Shown here piece after piece: positions 4,667 to 28,660 of a stretch of 31,354 bases of DNA. The notes below the pieces were generated by a model that worked only from the letters and a program-made list of their open reading frames with translations, made no database searches and was not told the DNA's origin. Each line of letters opens with the position of its first letter. Position 1 is the stretch's first letter. The translations under genes were made by a program, and so were the position numbers. The stretch comes from Ichthyophthirius multifiliis (lineage: Eukaryota > Ciliophora > Oligohymenophorea > Hymenostomatida): assembly GCF_000220395.1 (NCBI RefSeq), contig NW_004086357.1, forward strand, positions 1 through 31,354, read 5' to 3'.

Positions 4667-5303
4667 ATGTTTAATTCAATTATATTCAAAGGTTGCTTTA
4701 TAGGATTGACAAATGCTTTTTATATGAAACATAAAGAAGCAAAAAATGATTAAGTTTAAACATAAAGAAATGCAGTTTGTATATTATATCCTTAAGATGA
4801 ATAGGAAGTACAAGGCATATTTTCATTTACATAAGAAGCAGCATAATAACCAGTAAAGATAGTAGGATCACTAAAGAATCTATAACCAAACTAAGCTCAT
4901 GGAGTAAGTATACATGAATATGGTGATTTCTACGAAATAGGAAACCACTATAATCCACATAATAAATAACACGGAAGTCCATACTATTCAGAAGAAAGAC
5001 ATCTTGGAGATTTAGGTTTACTTTTTAAATAAAAAATATGTATAATTATTATATTTAAAAAAAATTAAAGGAAATATAAAAGCTGACCAATTTGGATTTG
5101 GATATTATACTTTGAGTAATAATTAAATAAGCTTATTTGGGGAACTTTCAATTTTAGGTAGAAGCTTAGCAATTCATAAAAATTAAGATGATATGGGATA
5201 AGGAGAAAGCAAAATTTCTTTAGTTAATGGAAACTCTGGAAGTGTTGTTGCTTGTGGAATTATTGGAATAGCCTCTAAATTTATAAATTTATAAGCTAAA
5301 TGA
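4667..5303 (+). CDS. Cu/Zn superoxide dismutase-like protein with altered copper site
   Basis: Two exons (intron 5016-5070) give 193 residues, a little longer than the usual ~153 because of a ~35-residue N-terminal extension with a hydrophobic patch (residues 4-20), which could be a targeting signal. The SOD fold signatures are clear: HGVSIHEYGDF, NHYNP, KQHGSP, RHLGDLGN, LSILGRSLAIH and the ending ACGIIGIAS. Using human SOD1 numbering, ligands H48, H63, H71, H80, D83 and H120 are present (H83, H94, H102, H112, D115, H152). The copper ligand H46 is Ser81, the guiding R143 is Val175, and C57 of the structural disulphide is missing (loop shortened) although C146 (C178) remains. The normal enzyme dismutates superoxide. 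With the copper site incomplete, activity is doubtful, so this may be a pseudoenzyme or a metal-binding paralogue. The family call is very secure; loss of function is inferred. Confidence 0.93.
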
Positions 5304-5843: not shown

Positions 5844-8800
5844 ATGTACCAAGAAACGGATTGTTAAGTAGTTATTACTTTATTCTCTATTTTCGGAATA
5901 ATATATGGAATCGTTCTTTCATTTTTAATTGTTATAAATATTAAAAAAAACAATTAAATATATAAATTAAAATTATTATAATATTAATATATATATTTAG
6001 CACCTTAATAAGAAGCACTCACTTTAATTAAATTTAAAATCAACTGATTAAAAGTAGTTAAATATAGAACAAAGCTAAATTAATTCTTAATAGATACATT
6101 CTTAATAAGATAGATATTACAAAGGCTTAATAGATTATCTATTACATGTGTCATTTAATTTATTTTTAAATTAATCAATTTTAATGATTGTTTTTGCTGT
6201 ATTATTTGCTTTGATATTTCTTGTATTAAAAAAATAGAATTTTATTTATATTTCTAAATTAATATAAATAATTATTTATAAAAAATAGATATATTTTTCT
6301 GATGAAGGTTATAGTTTTTATGTTATTTTTGCTTATTTACTAGGATGCTTTTCTATTTCTTTTATTACAATATTTACATAAATTGTTTCTGTTTTAGGAA
6401 TAACAAAAATACCTAATTTATAAGATAAAAATAATGTTTTTATGTTTTCATATACAGTATCTTCAATCATAAGTATAACATCGACATCAATCTAAATATT
6501 TATATTTTCAATATTGATTATTTCTTATTCAAGTATTTTATTTATATTTATTAAAAAAACTTTATAACTACCAAATAAAAATAAAAAAGAACTTATACTA
6601 ACTGAAGAGACAAAAGATTTATATTTAAAGTTAGCAAAAAGTGTGATGGGCTATGCTTTAGGGAATATATTTTCTTGTATATTTTATCGAGAAGCAAATA
6701 ATTTATCTTCAAAATCTATAATAATAGGAAGTTTTTTAATTTAAAAAAATAACACAAATTAAGATGAATTAAATAGAATTTAGTTAAATATTGAAATGGC
6801 GAAAATTATATCAAATATTTAAATAAATAATATAACAAATGTTTTAGATTATTAAACAATTTTCGCAACTTTTACTTGCGCTTATTTAGTAATTTTGAGT
6901 TAACTAAATTAATTTTATCATCCTTTTTTTTATATGCCATTATTTTTCTTAATTCTAAATTTACTTATAACAATTACTGTAAGCTTTGGTTGCCGAATGA
7001 AAGCTTAAAATTGTATTTTTATATATTTAATTTTCATAATTTAATATTTAAGTTTTATATTTTATTTTTTGCATATAGAAATAGCAAGTTTTAGTGCAAA
7101 ATAAATTAAATATTAAATAATTTTATGTTAGTTTTTTAATTTTATATTTATAATGACTCTTAGTTTATATTTAGTTCCTCAATAAATATCTATATAAGCA
7201 GAAAGTCAATATTTTAATGTATAAAATATTCCAAGAAGTAGCATAGTAATATGCCTTGTTCTAGGACTTTTTCTATAAGGATTAATTGTTTTTTATTCTG
7301 AAGTTTTGACTTCTCATTATCATTACCCTGTAAGAAAACTTGCAAATATAAATGGAAATAATTAAAATGGTATTTTTAAACAAATTTAAACATGAAATAT
7401 ATATACATTTTATAATTATTTCTAAAAATAGATTTTACAAATAGTATACTTATATCTTAATTTTAAACATATATAAGTTAAATATTTATATTCTTTCTAA
7501 TAAGCCTTATTATTCTAATTACTTATTTCTTGGCAGGCTTTTTAGGAATTGCATGTTCTGCTATAGGATTAATATCAACCCATTAATATCTATTAACTAC
7601 TAATATTTTTGATTGCATAACAAGTTAGTCTTTCGAAATGTGTAAAATTGGTAAAAAAATAAAAAAATATTTGAAAAAATTAACAATAACCTTTTTAATT
7701 ATATATCAGGATATATATATAACGATAATAGACAATATATTTTCAAATAATAATGGGCTACTTAAAATTATAGCATTTTTTCATAGATAGTTTACATAAT
7801 GATAGTTTTTTTAATAACTTAATATTTATTGGGGCCTTTTTATTACTTCAAAAAAGTAAGGATTAATAATTTAATGGAGGGATTATTTTTAGCTTTTTAA
7901 TGGGAGGATCTACTATTTATTTTTTCAAAGGCATTTCAATGTTTAATATATAGTTATTAAGTCAAAATATAGTAAATATATATAAAAAAAAAAAAAAAAA
8001 ATATAAAACAGAATTAAAATTAAATAAAATAATTATCTGGTTAATAATCTTATTTAAGGACATTAAATTCTTTTATGGATTAATAATATTTTTAATCCAT
8101 AAAAAAAGTTTCTTTAAATATATTTTTGGTATGAAAATTATATTAAATATATATTATTATTATTTTAGGTATTAATTTTAATATTTTTTATTGGTTTATT
8201 ATTTGGATCTACAAGCCTTATTTCATTTATTTTTGGAATTAATTTAGTGGCTATTTTTATATGTTTCACATCATTAACAATAAGCTATAGTGTAAAAAAC
8301 TCAAAAGAATTCAATAAAAGTATTATAAAATTTATATAACTAGTTAAAATAGAATTTTTAATTTGTTAAATAATTTAAAATAAAAACTAAATCTATAAGT
8401 AAAAATGTTAATTAAATTTTACATTAAAAAATTAAATATCTTAAGAAAAAATAAACAATATTAAAAAATTATAATTTAAAAAAAAAAAAAATTGAAAAAA
8501 ATAAAATAAAATGAATATATATTAATATTAATAGACTAATTTATATTTAAATAAATTTTAATGAAAAATTATAGTAAAAAAAAATAAAAATAAAATAAAA
8601 TATAAAGGATATAATATTTATAAAATTAAATATATTTATAAAGATATATATGTAAATATATATACGTATATATATATATATTACTAATTTATTTATTTTT
8701 CTATATATATAAATATATAAATTTTTATTTTAATATTTTAATTATATACAAACATATATTACTTATAAAATAGATATTGGAGATTATAATTTAGACAATA

Positions 8801-9045
8801 TTTTTTCTTATAACTACGTTTCATTAGTTATTGAAGGTGTTCCAGGTACACATTTTATTCTTTATATAGTTTTTATTAGTATTTTTTCTTTATTTTGTAT
8901 CAATTCATGGAATTAATATGAGTTTGTTACAAATTTGAATAAGGATCAAAACAATAATACAAAATAAATAATTTAAAATGGATTTTATTTTGCTTAATAG
9001 ACTTTTGAAGGTGCTAAATAATTTTTTTAAAAATACTATTAATGA
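5844..9045 (+). CDS. Membrane pyrophosphatase (V-PPase) homologue lacking catalytic residues
   Basis: Ciliate-code exons spanning ~3.2 kb align in order with H+-translocating pyrophosphatase: AYLLGCFSISF; GYALGNIFSCIFYREANN; YSEVLTSHYHYPVRKLAN (family: E-Y-Y-T-S...PVR-x-x-A); GFLGIACSAIGLIST; FNGGIIFSFLMGGSTIYFF; VLILIFFIGLLFGS; and IGDYNLDNIFS near the end. Best introns are 5931-6000, 7013-7078, 7370-7431, 7651-7709 and 8129-8168. 6223-6288 is possible, and one long intron about 8365-8773 is less certain. The frame slips by one base at T7 (7806-7812) and A18 (7984-8001). The normal enzyme couples pyrophosphate hydrolysis to proton pumping in vacuoles or acidocalcisomes. Here a gapless alignment of the catalytic loop gives R242 and K250 kept (Vigna numbering) but D253 to Ile, D257 to Phe, D279 to Ala, D283 to Ser, D287 to Ile. 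The C-terminal D731 is Ser. About 14 membrane segments are expected. Homology is confident; exon details are partial; enzyme activity is unlikely. Confidence 0.8.
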
Positions 9046-9360: not shown

Positions 9361-10089
9361 TCATAATTTATTTTATGAATTCTAAATAAATTCAGATTAG
9401 TTATTGCTACTGATTTTGCTTTCAATATCGCTATCTTTATTAATCTTAGTCCAAAAATACTAGAATAATTTTTTAATTTATGCATCAATTTTATCAGAAT
9501 TACTACCTTCAAACGTCATAAAACAATAATGTCCCATAATAATTCCTATAAAAATATCTACAGTATAATGTATTCTAAAACCAATCATAACAATTCCCAT
9601 GTATAAAGCAATAAATATAGTTATAGTGCTCATTAAATATTTTTTATTATAATACCATTCTAAAGCTGCAAGAGTTAAAAATCCACAATGCCCGGACCAA
9701 AAAAAATCTGTGGATTTTCCATAAGGAATTGTAAGAGAAGGAAAGCCAGGAGGATCCCAAAAATCACCATCTGGATAAGGAAAAACTACTATTTATTAAA
9801 CAAAAAACCTTGTCAAATAAAAAAGTGACATTGAATATAAAATACGGCCTGTATTTATTCTAAATACCCAATATATAAATAATGTCAAAAAACTAAAATC
9901 CATCAATAAACTACTTGATATTTGTAAAAATTTAGTTAAAGAAGAGTTTTTATTTATTTCCGTATTCATTCCTGCTAAACAATTCATAATTGGATCATGG
10001 ATCCCATTATAGCTTTTTATAGGAACGCCGAATATTTTTCCTAGAAAAATCGCTATAACGGAAATAAAAAAAATACATGTTTTTAACAT
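9361..10089 (-). CDS. PAP2-fold / sphingomyelin-synthase-like membrane protein
   Basis: A single uninterrupted ciliate-code frame of 242 residues, ending at TGA. The catalytic motifs of the SMS/PAP2_C group are in order. A D2-like motif GRILYSMSLFYLTR...PYPD spans residues 81-107, FWSGHCGFLT carries the first catalytic His (H134), and FRIHYTVDIF carries the second His and the Asp (H174, D178). At least five hydrophobic segments flank them, including residues 5-22 and 61-80. Family members transfer a phosphocholine or phosphoethanolamine head group between glycerolipid and ceramide, or act as lipid phosphatases, in Golgi or plasma membrane. The His/His/Asp triad is intact, so it should be active, but the head-group donor cannot be told from sequence. 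The C-terminal ~40 residues are a polar Asn/Ser/Lys tail. The first ATG is chosen because it directly precedes a signal-anchor-like stretch. Confidence 0.82.
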
Positions 10090-10240
10090 TATTTATGTTT
10101 TTGATTACATATTTTATTTCATTTTTCTGAATTTTTAAACAATTATTTTTTAATTTTTTATTTTTTGGATTAAAAAAAATATTATTGATATATTTTGTTT
10201 TTTTGGATTTTTTTTATTTATATTTTTCTATAATTTTTTA

Positions 10241-10330
10241 AAAGATTCAATCAAGAAAAATAAGACCAATTATATTTTGTTGCCTTTATTTTTGGTTGAT
10301 TAAGTTTTTTTAAAAAAACTAAAAAAAATA
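10241..10330. repeat. Short hairpin repeat, copy 1
   Basis: A left arm ending AATCAAGAAAAATAA (about 10249-10263) pairs imperfectly with a right arm GCCTTTATTTTTGGTTGATT (about 10282-10301), followed by AAG and a T-run/A-run. The right arm resembles the sequences at about 10548 and 23416, giving a small family with core GCCTTTwTTTTkGTTGATTgAG. Confidence 0.4.
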
Positions 10331-10487
10331 AAAAATAAAAAATTATAAGCTATTAATATTTATTATTTACTTATGAATAAATTAAAAATCTTATTTATAT
10401 AAGATGATAAAATATATCCTAATTACATAAATTCATGATAATATTTTTTATTTTTAATTTCAAATACTTTAAATATTTATAGAGAAT

Positions 10488-14035: not shown

Positions 14036-14770
14036 TCATTATTATTTTTATAAATAAAAATTATTTTCTTAAATATGCTTGTGCTCATCACTAGGTTTTT
14101 TTATGTTTTCACCTTAATAAGATATAGTTTAATCGACTTCGAAAACATTTTAAGTTGAAGCCTAAAAATCGATAACATAACCAGCTTAAATTAGCCATTA
14201 TCTATGTAATTTAGATACTAATTCTAAGGCTGTTAAAGGCGTATCAATATTAGAATTGTTATCGTTATTTTTAATTGGTGCGAATTCTTATTCTCTATTA
14301 ACTTCTATTAATCCAAATGAATTAGAAAGTTGAAAAGCATCAAAAATAAAAAGTTCAAATTTATAAGCATTTTTTTCATTAGGATAAACAATTTCTTTTT
14401 TGAAAACATCATAATAAGAAACTTATTTAATAGCTTAATGATATACCATAAGCTAATTTGTTTATTAAGAATCTTAAATGATTCGATTTAAAAAAGAGAC
14501 TTAGCAAATAAAATTACAAATAAATCCTTAATTAAATTTGTATTATCCTGATAAATTTTTTTCATATATTTATTATTAAGTCATATCAGAATATTCAATA
14601 ATAAAAGGTTTTTAGTTTTTTAAAACATGTACACCAACACATTCTTCTGGATATGCTTTTTTTACAAATTTTGATACTATTTCATAATTGTTTTATATCA
14701 AATAACCTAATTATGTTGGATCGCCAAGTTTTACAAGTATATTATCTATTCCAACAATCTGTATATAAAA

Positions 14771-14810
<40 letters not shown>

Positions 14811-15744
14811 AATAAATATATTTTTTTTTTTTTTTTTTATAAATTTTTTTTTTTTATTTATTTTAATATCATTATAATTGAATTTTTTGTTTTTATTTAT
14901 TATTTTTTTATATGTTATATAATTAATTTTTTTTTTTAATATTTACATGAACATATTTTATTTTTTATTCATTAAGTTATTTTAATATTTTTTTATTTTC
15001 TAGAGCTTCGTATACCCCTCCGTTTCCATTCGGTGATAAATATATTTAATTTTCATTTTCAAGCAATATTTTTCCATTTTTATCAATACAAGTCACATAA
15101 CCTTATTAGAAAAAGTGTAAATTTTCATCTCTTATTCCAAAATTTTTATTTTTTTTGAAAAAATCTTTTGTTTCTTTATCAGTTTATTTAGATGTCATTA
15201 AATACCATTAAATTCCACTTTAATTTTCTTTTTAGGGAAATCTTTATAAACTTAATTCATAAAGACGATTAATTCTTTCAGCAAAAATTTAAAATAAGCT
15301 TTTTTTAGAGTGTAAATTAATCTTAAACATTCCTTTAGGATTATCGAAGCCTAATCTTGTTCCTTTTTATAATTTTTTATTTTATTCAATTTTTTTTTAA
15401 ATACCTTATCCTCCTGCTAATGTTATTATTGCTAACTAACCTTAAGAAATAGATTTTAAACCTATTTATTATAATTCTTCAATTATGTCTTAAGTTTATT
15501 TTTCAAGACTTAGTAAATTTTCAACAGGTTAAATAAGATTGTCTTTTTGTTAATTAATTATTATTTCTTTCTTAATTATCTTTTTAAAAATTTCTACTTA
15601 ATCAAAATCAATTTCTTTTAGTTATTCATAAAATTGGTCTAATTCTGCTTAAGAGAGTTCACTTATTTCAGAAACTATTTGAGATTAATCATGATTAATT
15701 ATTTTAGAAACCAATTAAGATAGTAATAACTCTGTTACTGACAT
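14036..15744 (-). CDS. UAP1: UDP-N-acetylglucosamine pyrophosphorylase
   Basis: Three exons (introns 15363-15404 and 14759-14946) give 492 residues, the usual length for the family. The enzyme makes UDP-GlcNAc from UTP and GlcNAc-1-phosphate in the cytosol, feeding N-glycans, GPI anchors and any chitin-like polymer. Diagnostic motifs are present: the nucleotide loop LAGGQGTRLG (109-118, spanning intron 1), NPKGMF, SLFQIFAERI, WYLMTS, FFQQGYVTCID, SPNGNGGVYEAL, GIDNILVKLGDP, VGVHVLKN, FELFIFDAFQ and EVNREQEFAPIKN. Intron 1 removal restores the glycine-rich loop exactly, which confirms splicing. Intron 2 is unusually long and holds a TAAA microsatellite and A/T homopolymers. Exon lengths sum to a whole number of codons, with no frameshift. 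It lies 164 bases upstream of the RMC1-like gene on the same strand. No unusual residue is seen in the active site, so it should be functional. Confidence 0.96.
14766..14808. repeat. TAAA tetranucleotide microsatellite in UAP1 intron
   Basis: About ten tandem TAAA units lie near the 3' splice site (minus strand) of UAP1 intron 2, next to long T and A runs at 14820-14855. Such tracts are prone to length change and to assembly error. Confidence 0.85.
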
Positions 15745-26643: not shown

Positions 26644-28660
26644 TCAATTATTATCTTCATCTTCAATATCAAATTAAAATTCAAAGTTATGATCTTATAA
26701 ATTTTAATAATATTCTTCACTGTTTTTCTTATCAAATTTTTATTTATTTTGCTCTAAAAACTAAGATTAAATATCCTTATTATTTTTTTCGTTATCCTAT
26801 AAATTTTGTTAAAAGTTTAAATTAATTTATTAGAAATTGTCTTTTTAGTGATTTTCTAAATTTTATTTAATACTATTTTCTTAATTTTTTTATTATAAAT
26901 ATAAATTTTAATTATTAATTTAAAGTTAATCTTAATTTAAATTAACCTAAAAGTTTTAATTTTATTCATAATCATCACTTTCTTTTTTCAATACAGATTA
27001 TAAAAAATCCAACTAAATATTTTCTTCTTGAATTTCTTTTTTATTTTCAATAATAATATTTTCTCTATTTTTATTATTAATATCTTCTTATTTTTATTCT
27101 TTCTTTTCTTAATATTATTCAACTTAATAATCAATCTCTTAGTTTTTTTTTTGGTTTTTAAAAATTTATAATGTTCCTTTAGAGCTATAGGTATAATACA
27201 AATAAGGCTTCCTGTACAAATAAGCATGAAGAATACAAAAATACTTTTTTCTCCAATATTTGGAATAATAATCTAAGCTAAAGCAGCTGATAAACTGCCT
27301 GATCCTTCAACTAAGCCAACCATAGTACCTACAGCTTAAGCATTTCCTTTTAGTTTTGGATGATTTCCAAGATCAATAATGACTGGACCTCCAATAATAT
27401 TATAACAGCTTCCAAGAAAAATACCAATTAAAAACCCCAAAAAATAAAAATAAACGGAATTCGATTTATATTTTCCTAATTTATTAAAACTGTATAAACA
27501 AAAAAGTAGAATTATTTATGAAGGGGGCATTATGATTGCCCTTTTTTTAAGTAAATCTCCTAAATACCCCCCCAATATTCCTCCAATAAGCATTCCTACA
27601 GACCATAAAATGGAAACTGTAGCACTAATATCTGCCAAATTATTATCTTGTAAATATTTTGGTAACCAAAAAATTAAACCATAATTTAAAGATTTTAAAC
27701 ACATAAAAGAAAGCATTACATTAAATACACCGGAAAGTTATATCGCTTATAATACAGTTATTGTGTTTTTTTGTTTTGGTTGCTATATAGTTTAATCAAC
27801 TTCTACTATTATTTCTTCATTTTTGTTCTCTTCTTTTTTTAAATCGTTTTTATCTTTCTTTCCTAATGTCAAGTCTTCATCTTCAGGATATGCAGATAAA
27901 AAAAGCTGAGCTAAAACACAAGTCACAAATACATATATTGATAAATATATTAAGGTTGTTTACCAAGAACTTCCTAATTTTATTATATATAATTCGCCCA
28001 TTAAAGAGCCTATAATATCGCCTAAATTTCTTGAGCCTATCCATAACGAGATTATCAAACCTTATATTTTTTTATTTTATTGTTATATATTTAATTTTAC
28101 CTCTGTTTAATTTGCTATACCAATTACAAAATAAACTTAAAAAAGAAGGTAGGCATATTGAGTCAAAGAAACCATATAGAATTTGAAAAAAACAATACAA
28201 GTATATATTTTTAGAACCAAAAATTCTTGAAATGCTAATCATAAAAACACATAATGTTGAAAATGATAATCCTATGATTAATGTTTTTTTTGGATTGCTT
28301 TTATCAACTTATAAATTAAAAATATGATTTTTAATACAAAATTATAATATTTTGTTTTATATAAAAACCTTTTTGCCCCATAAATTTAAATGAAATCGCT
28401 AAACTTAATAAAAAGCACATATTTAATGCACCTAATTATTTATCATTTATACCTGTATCTTATTAAAAATACATAGATATATAACTCCATCCAGACCTTA
28501 ACGCTTAAATAAATTATTATTATTACATTCTTATATATTTTTTTATTTTTTTACTATGAGAAGAAGAATACGTTAATAATAGTAAAAAAAAAGTACGTAT
28601 TTAATACCTAAAAAGTTTACTTTTTTTAATCTAATATATATACTTTTTCAAATAAATCAT
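26644..28660 (-). CDS. SLC37-type sugar-phosphate/phosphate exchanger (MFS)
   Basis: Three exons (introns 28308-28368 and 28061-28100) encode a major-facilitator transporter of the organophosphate:phosphate antiporter family. Family motifs run in order: FRYQIRTFFLLLLTYSSSHS (TM1), LGALNMCFLLSLAISF, FQILYGFFDSICLPSFLSL, NWYSKLNRGLIISLWIGSRN, CLKSLNYGLIFWLPKYL, VGMLIGGILGGYLGDL, GGPVIIDLGNHPKLKGNAQA and VGLVEGSGSLSAALAQ. SLC37/GlpT-like carriers exchange glucose-6-phosphate or glycerol-3-phosphate for phosphate, mostly in the ER membrane. An acidic Lys/Glu-rich loop joins the two six-helix halves. After the last helix the frame slips at the T10 run 27143-27152 (plus strand): staying in frame gives a Lys-rich tail to TGA 26988, while a one-base correction gives an acidic Gln/Asn/Glu-rich tail of ~170 residues to TGA 26644, which looks far more natural. 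ATG 28660 is in frame just ahead of TM1. With the correction the protein is 638 residues; without the tail it matches the usual ~500. Confidence 0.85.

Follow-up and report, generated by a model that had tools for sequence, protein, structure and literature searches.

Membrane pyrophosphatases are dimers with communication between their subunits (PMC6882861), and their catalytic residues are almost invariant, as each of the 16 hydrolytic positions compared in this work is conserved in 85/85 reference sequences. Trypanosome prozymes, which are dead paralogues, activate enzymes by heterodimerisation (PMC5201418). For another ciliate that parasitises fish, two H+-PPases are described in PMC8055999, where homologues in Ichthyophthirius and Tetrahymena are also mentioned; the word pyrophosphatase is absent from the main text of the Ichthyophthirius genome paper (PMC3341644). 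A literature search, with subscription journals mostly outside its coverage, found nothing joining membrane pyrophosphatase with pseudoenzyme; among the matches listed, the titles and abstract openings named no such family in a ciliate, and no title concerned a dead membrane pyrophosphatase.

The window analysed here is a 31,354-base stretch of Ichthyophthirius multifiliis DNA on contig C492 of a genome copy of 45 Mb in 937 contigs; it is very AT-rich (8-26% GC per kilobase) and was translated with the ciliate code. A sequence-only reading had placed a gene for a pyrophosphatase-like pseudoenzyme at 5844-9045, and this span holds, with an ATG at 5844 and a TGA at 9043-9045. Nine exons on the + strand, joined via GT-AG introns, give 777 codons (one of them an X) followed by the TGA. 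The exons are listed below; residue positions are in Vigna numbering, and sister genes elsewhere in the genome are designated by their contigs (C856, C255, C770 and C560).

Exon 1, 5844..5930, + strand: start codon and first hydrophobic helix; the column of intron 1 is common to C856, C770 and C560
Exon 2, 6013..6222, + strand: acceptor at 6012 picked by likeness to C856
Exon 3, 6289..7012, + strand: helices 3-7 with the 5-6 loop that was once catalytic; equivalents of R242, K250, E268 and D294 kept, D253, D257, D269, D279, D283 and D287 lost
Exon 4, 7079..7369, + strand: carries the TSH..PVR stretch; the preceding intron is one of four open candidates
Exon 5, 7432..7650, + strand: region of helices 10-11, in which the DNAGG-type motif and D507 are missing
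Exon 6, 7710..7971, + strand: helix 12-13 region with the family motif W...NYSIF.Q; frame break near the T-run 7805-7812
Exon 7, 8012..8128, + strand: both flanking introns match C856 and C255 in column and phase
Exon 8, 8169..8319, + strand: helix 15 with S-V-K-N; the D691 equivalent is Lys
Exon 9, 8774..9045, + strand: helix 16 and the stop TGA; D723, D727, K730, D731 and K742 lost

For five of the eight introns a single open candidate exists between anchors, and the others (six candidates for the first, four for the third and thirteen for the last) were settled with help from the sister genes. Specifically, the exon 2 acceptor was one of six open options with the donor used, including 6000, 6012 and 6015, and the intron upstream of exon 9 was picked by homology to C255. 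The 66-base, frame-preserving intron at 6223-6288 was spotted by likeness to C856. The reading frame breaks once, in exon 6 near the T-run 7805-7812, a feature that the sequence-only reading did not mention. Two introns that would bypass this break, 7790-7860 and 7805-7860, were set aside because splicing them out would delete a helix for which the sister proteins have an aligned counterpart, and because, as judged by eye, their GGGGCC stretch sets them apart from the remaining introns.

Several other genes lie in the window. Just upstream, a copper/zinc superoxide dismutase exon is located at 4746-5303 on the + strand (PF00080, E 2.1e-13). The next gene, at 9361-10428 on the - strand, encodes a PAP2 superfamily C-terminal protein (PF14360, E 8.3e-8) and has no apparent connection with the gene at 5844-9045. 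Also on the - strand are a UTP-glucose-1-phosphate uridylyltransferase-like exon at 14036-14872 (PF01704, E 1.1e-6) and an MFS/OATP-like transporter at 26988-28220 (PF07690, E 5e-25). A Pfam scan of the adjoining gene and ten other frames of the stretch provided no functional hint.

The fold-wide match to membrane pyrophosphatase that had been proposed is evident in the spliced protein, which matches PF03030 (H_PPase) with an E-value of 2.1e-15 and 56.9 bits, versus a cut-off of 29.7, over residues 78-670 of 777. When the whole genome was searched with this profile, the unspliced locus scored 23.7 bits at 7467-7682, under the cut-off. The sister proteins match PF03030 with E-values of 5.4e-28 (C856), 1.1e-29 (C255), 1.8e-19 (C770) and 7.9e-18 (C560). 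All three family members scanned with TIGR01104 (the NCBI equivalog V_PPase) give matches, the best E-value being that of C856 (9e-20), which scores 70.8 bits versus a cut-off of 651.9. A profile made from the window gene, C856 and C255 matches 10 distinct PDB sequences, all of which are membrane pyrophosphatases. An AlphaFold model of P0001, a 514-residue database protein from C856, is weak (mean pLDDT 60.2, pTM 0.61, TM-score about 0.4); Foldseek nevertheless gave 26 PDB matches for it at E up to 0.001, of which 26/26 belong to the membrane pyrophosphatases, a result that lends support to the fold and is not independent proof, because 23 normal homologues formed the model's alignment. With regard to the proposed frame of 14-15 helices, a crude count of hydropathy peaks gives 13 for the window protein, 14 for the normal enzyme C648 and 12 for Vigna (16 helices are present in solved structures), which suggests a similar frame and sets no exact number.

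The genome contains at least ten pyrophosphatase relatives, five of them normal (C730, C648, C721, C2 and C765) and five divergent. C765 is type II-like, to judge by the Lys in its GNVTKANTKG stretch, a motif of that type; it differs from the other four normal genes in that R242 is replaced by Gln, D500 by Ser and N738 by His. Among the divergent members, the window gene, C856 and C255 came from the PF03030 search of the genome. C770 and C560 were not among its matches and emerged only when a family protein served as the query (E 2.2e-30 and 7.4e-22, respectively, with C856; E 1.3e-23 and 2.6e-13 with the window protein). These two members are as follows.

C770 member, C770:41000-47500: modelled with three uncertain joins and with introns picked among candidates
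C560 member, C560:85000-91800: modelled with one uncertain join and with introns picked among candidates

A tree built from 32 of the aligned sequences groups the five divergent genes into one clade with a support of 100/100, which is split into C770 and C560 (99/96) versus the window gene with C856 and C255 (100/99). The tree does not fix the position of this clade among the normal enzymes, because the branches are very long and the composition is skewed. Intron positions were also compared, with some of the junctions having been picked among candidates, partly by homology: two introns match in column and phase in the window gene, C856 and C255, two in the window gene and C255 only, and one in C856 and C255. 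The columns of one window/C856 intron and one window/C255 intron recur in C770 and C560, which were compared by column. None of the eight intron positions of the normal genes matches those of the window gene, C856 and C255, the nearest being two columns off and in another phase.

Residues of known function were inspected in the full alignment of 95 sequences, comprising 84 database proteins, Vigna and the ten I. multifiliis genes (P0001 was omitted as a fragment of C856); 85 of these sequences serve as references. The hydrolytic-centre, funnel and gate residues are those listed in PMC6882861, whose Table 3 was used to obtain the corresponding Vigna positions, except that N12.53 of the list would equal residue 544 and the invariant Asn N534 was used instead. 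The window protein retains 3/16 hydrolytic residues (K250, E268 and K694), and the other members retain 4 (C856), 4 (C255, in which one cell is an X and is scored as lost), 3 (C770) and 3 (C560), whereas all five normal I. multifiliis genes retain 16/16. The same division is seen over the 191 columns that are at least 95% invariant in the 85 references, where the normal genes keep 151-167 and the family 32-46, and over the 45 charged or Asn columns that pass this threshold, where they keep 40-44 and 9-13, respectively. Within the coupling funnel (R242, K250, D283, D294, D500, K541, K730 and D731) the window protein has 3/8 residues, namely R242, K250 and D294. The ionic gate formed by D294 and K742 retains D294, and K742 is replaced by Val in the window protein and by a non-basic residue in 5/5 members. 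By its hydrolytic centre, funnel and gate, the window protein does not qualify as a functional V-type/H+-pyrophosphatase.

Individual substitutions had also been named from the letters of the stretch. The changes of D253 to Ile and D257 to Phe, the retention of R242, K250 and E268, and the absence of the DNAGG-type motif all reappear in our alignment. D279, D283 and D287 are indeed replaced by non-acidic residues, the letters of which depend on the alignment: they are Lys, Asn and Asn in the 95-sequence alignment, and Ala, Ser and Ile in the gapless one originally used. The assignment of Ser to D731 does not stand, as the residue aligned at this position is Gly in the window protein; it is Ser in C255, Asn in C856, Glu in C770 and Asp in C560. 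Because the alignment of the 5-6 loop and of the region around helix 12 crosses indels, individual letters there can shift. In C770 and C560, an Asp-Ala-Tyr triplet resembling the normal DAYG motif is located about eight columns off, and their retention of D500 is ambiguous.

It could be argued that a working enzyme persists, i.e. a phosphohydrolase or pyrophosphatase whose catalytic residues have moved or whose substrate is a different one, as K250, R242 and D294 are present in 5/5 members and C856 and C255 still carry D257, E268 and D723. However, most of the hydrolytic Asp residues are gone, D691 has become Lys in 5/5 members and K730 has become Glu in 4/5. The stretch from K250 to D294 is also depleted in Asp, with 2 in the window protein and 1-4 across the family versus 7-9 in the normal I. 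multifiliis genes and 8 in Vigna, though six Glu residues are found there in C560. We consider retained catalysis very unlikely. Even less credible is a normal enzyme concealed by wrong exons or a faulty alignment. Such an artefact might be suspected in a heavily split gene with several open candidates for 3/8 introns and in an assembly with frame breaks, but the losses lie inside exons 3, 5, 6, 8 and 9, in frame and between conserved flanks, and recur at four other loci. No intron interrupts the K250-D294 stretch in the window gene, C856 or C255, and the Asp motifs do not reappear once the exons are worked out (3/16 here versus 16/16 in the five normal genes).

The suggestion of a non-catalytic relative is thus strengthened by the 3/16 hydrolytic residues, by the single clade and by losses that are common to four paralogues elsewhere in the genome. 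Taken together, these comparisons provide good support for assigning the C492 gene to a five-gene I. multifiliis family of predicted non-catalytic membrane-pyrophosphatase relatives. At the level of sequence comparison, the existence of five members with common losses and common new residues, which lies outside the coordinates first read, is a stronger fact than the original observation, which stands in its essentials.

The new residues are informative about what the family conserves. The columns identical in all five members number 43 (X cells set aside), and 18/43 carry a residue seen in <5% of normal sequences; these rare fixed residues include V243E, F296Q, T535N, I539F, K541Q, D691K and L740Y. 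R242, K250, D294 and N692 are kept in 5/5 members. We take the inner ring of the fold to consist of helices 5, 6, 11, 12, 15 and 16. The hydrolytic residues sit on these helices in PMC6882861, consistent with this assignment, and helix zones were defined as 14 residues on each side of the helix centres in its Table 3. Family-invariant columns occupy 23/174 inner-helix positions versus 10/290 outer ones (Fisher p 1.3e-4), with ten more outside both, a lean that depends on the ±14 zone and may partly reflect better alignment of the inner helices. Helices 4, 10, 13 and 14 have no family-invariant column within 14 residues of their centres, the invariant G582, L659 and G661 being just beyond this limit.

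A channel, a regulator and a structural partner of the true enzyme had been offered as possible roles. The main rival to the reading preferred below is a dead regulatory subunit that would modulate one of the five normal V-PPases by pairing with it, much as a prozyme does. Subunit communication in the dimeric enzymes and the trypanosome precedent make this conceivable, and two interface positions are partly preserved, with Y587 being Tyr in 4/5 members and A601 being Ala in 3/5. However, most of the 16 published interface positions (helices 10, 13 and 15) are not kept in the family, R609 is lost in 5/5 members although it is Arg in 85/85 references, and helices 4, 10, 13 and 14 show the dearth of invariant columns described above. 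The interface argument is a weak one, because several of these positions vary among normal enzymes too. We regard a regulatory subunit as unlikely; the residue pattern would fit re-use of the inner core better than a role as dimer partner, because conservation is found mostly in the inner bundle and little of the interface is retained.

The preferred reading of the family, re-use of the inner core, can be set out using established residue roles. Its members have preserved the frame of a pyrophosphatase together with K250 and the R242-D294 pair, and have lost 12-13/16 hydrolytic residues. Because the acidic cluster is missing, the protein should not bind Mg-PPi, and because K541 (funnel) and K742 (gate) are missing, the known coupling and gating path should be broken; we hold both predictions with high confidence. 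With Mg-PPi unbound, neither hydrolysis nor PPi-driven pumping would be expected, and the inner six-helix core would now serve a different ligand or ion. To the overall interpretation, i.e. a pseudoenzyme family that neither splits PPi nor pumps with it and has its inner core re-used for another ligand or ion, we assign an even chance. The likeliest role may be that of a passive membrane pathway, or of a membrane protein that senses a ligand independently of PPi. More tentatively, and with doubt outweighing confidence, we suggest that an ion pump became a five-member PPi-independent transport or sensing family in one ciliate lineage, in which a fixed Lys/Gln/Asn/Glu set on inner-ring helices would replace the acidic Mg-PPi site and the central pair R242-D294 is kept.

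Even within a functional pseudoenzyme family, the C492 copy could itself be a decaying pseudogene. Its frame is broken once, D257 and D723, both of which are kept by C856 and C255, are lost, and its protein was not found in database searches (including nr and EukProt). Homopolymer errors in 454 sequencing are well known. The exon 6 break is likely to be an assembly error, as single breaks likewise occur in C856, in C255 and in the normal gene C2. According to PMC3341644, the published assembly (49.0 Mb, 1,803 scaffolds) came mainly from 454 reads, which bears on this point if it is the assembly from which the 45 Mb, 937-contig copy derives, as is likely. The break in C2, an otherwise intact normal V-PPase, is located at rc position about 3102 and serves as a yardstick for the other breaks. 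Decay is also at odds with the absence of internal TGA codons, as the frame has 0 in 777 codons versus 13.2 expected by composition (10 and 12 are present in the other two forward frames), a deficit that is inflated because exons were chosen to be open. The window protein keeps 43/56 columns common to the other four members, which is within the range of its sisters (43/53 in C856, 43/49 in C255, 43/70 in C770 and 43/74 in C560). The dN/dS check that had been proposed was run on a codon model of 573 columns and yielded an omega of 0.10 for the window branch, with omega 1 rejected (2dlnL 25.7); this value is the highest of three compared (the others are 0.015 and 0.053, and imposing a single omega on all three costs 7.6 in 2dlnL), a point in favour of decay, and it is rough because substitution is saturated (one branch length is at the bound of 40). 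A simple-pseudogene reading is disfavoured, although the one frame break leaves it some probability, and we judge decay of this copy improbable.

Searches beyond the genome bear on how widely the family is distributed. A protein search with the frame 5845-7395 returned nothing at E 0.001, the 7992 candidates with the most words in common being scored. The family profile, run on proteins including nr and EukProt, returned P0001 and 84 proteins, all with a PF03030 domain, from 7998 scored candidates, a full list from which weak relatives may have been crowded out. Residues 186-290 of C856 gave 102 candidates, with P0001 as the sole match at E up to 10. This search would miss distant ciliate relatives because few or no words are shared: a C255-like relative has 18 five-letter words in common with the query, a window- or C770-like relative 3 and a C560-like relative 0. 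The label 'ciliate-specific' is therefore not established, as members were seen only in Ichthyophthirius, and no further member was found in protein databases including nr and EukProt, at a sensitivity that is limited for distant ones. A family that keeps the frame and drops the fuel site would reveal the abilities of the frame without PPi and the residues that couple fuel to transport.

Several known systems can be set beside this family. The I. multifiliis protein P0001 (514 aa), annotated as 'proton-pumping vacuolar pyrophosphatase, putative', belongs to it. Its name suggests an activity for which it lacks the residues, and a database record of a family member as a proton pump is probably wrong in function. 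P0001 starts about 230 residues into the 776-residue C856 model made here and lacks most of the former catalytic loop, so both its annotated name and its start are probably wrong. The trypanosome prozymes of AdoMetDC and deoxyhypusine synthase likewise place a dead paralogue beside an active protist enzyme (PMC5201418 and PMC3663545). They differ in fold, and they have been shown to associate with their active enzymes; for the family described here such an association is hypothetical. The five normal V-PPases are homologous and encoded in the same genome but possess the full hydrolytic set and have eight intron positions that do not coincide in column and phase with those of the window gene, C856 and C255. 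A further comparison is with membrane-integral pyrophosphatases such as the Vigna radiata H+-PPase (4A01) and the Thermotoga maritima Na+-PPase (4AV3), which are alike in length and hydrophobic frame, align collinearly over most of the protein and have R242, K250, D294, N692 and several glycines in common with the family. However, in the case of the family, 12-13 of the 16 hydrolytic residues of these enzymes are absent, as are K541 and K742, and a lysine occupies the position of D691.
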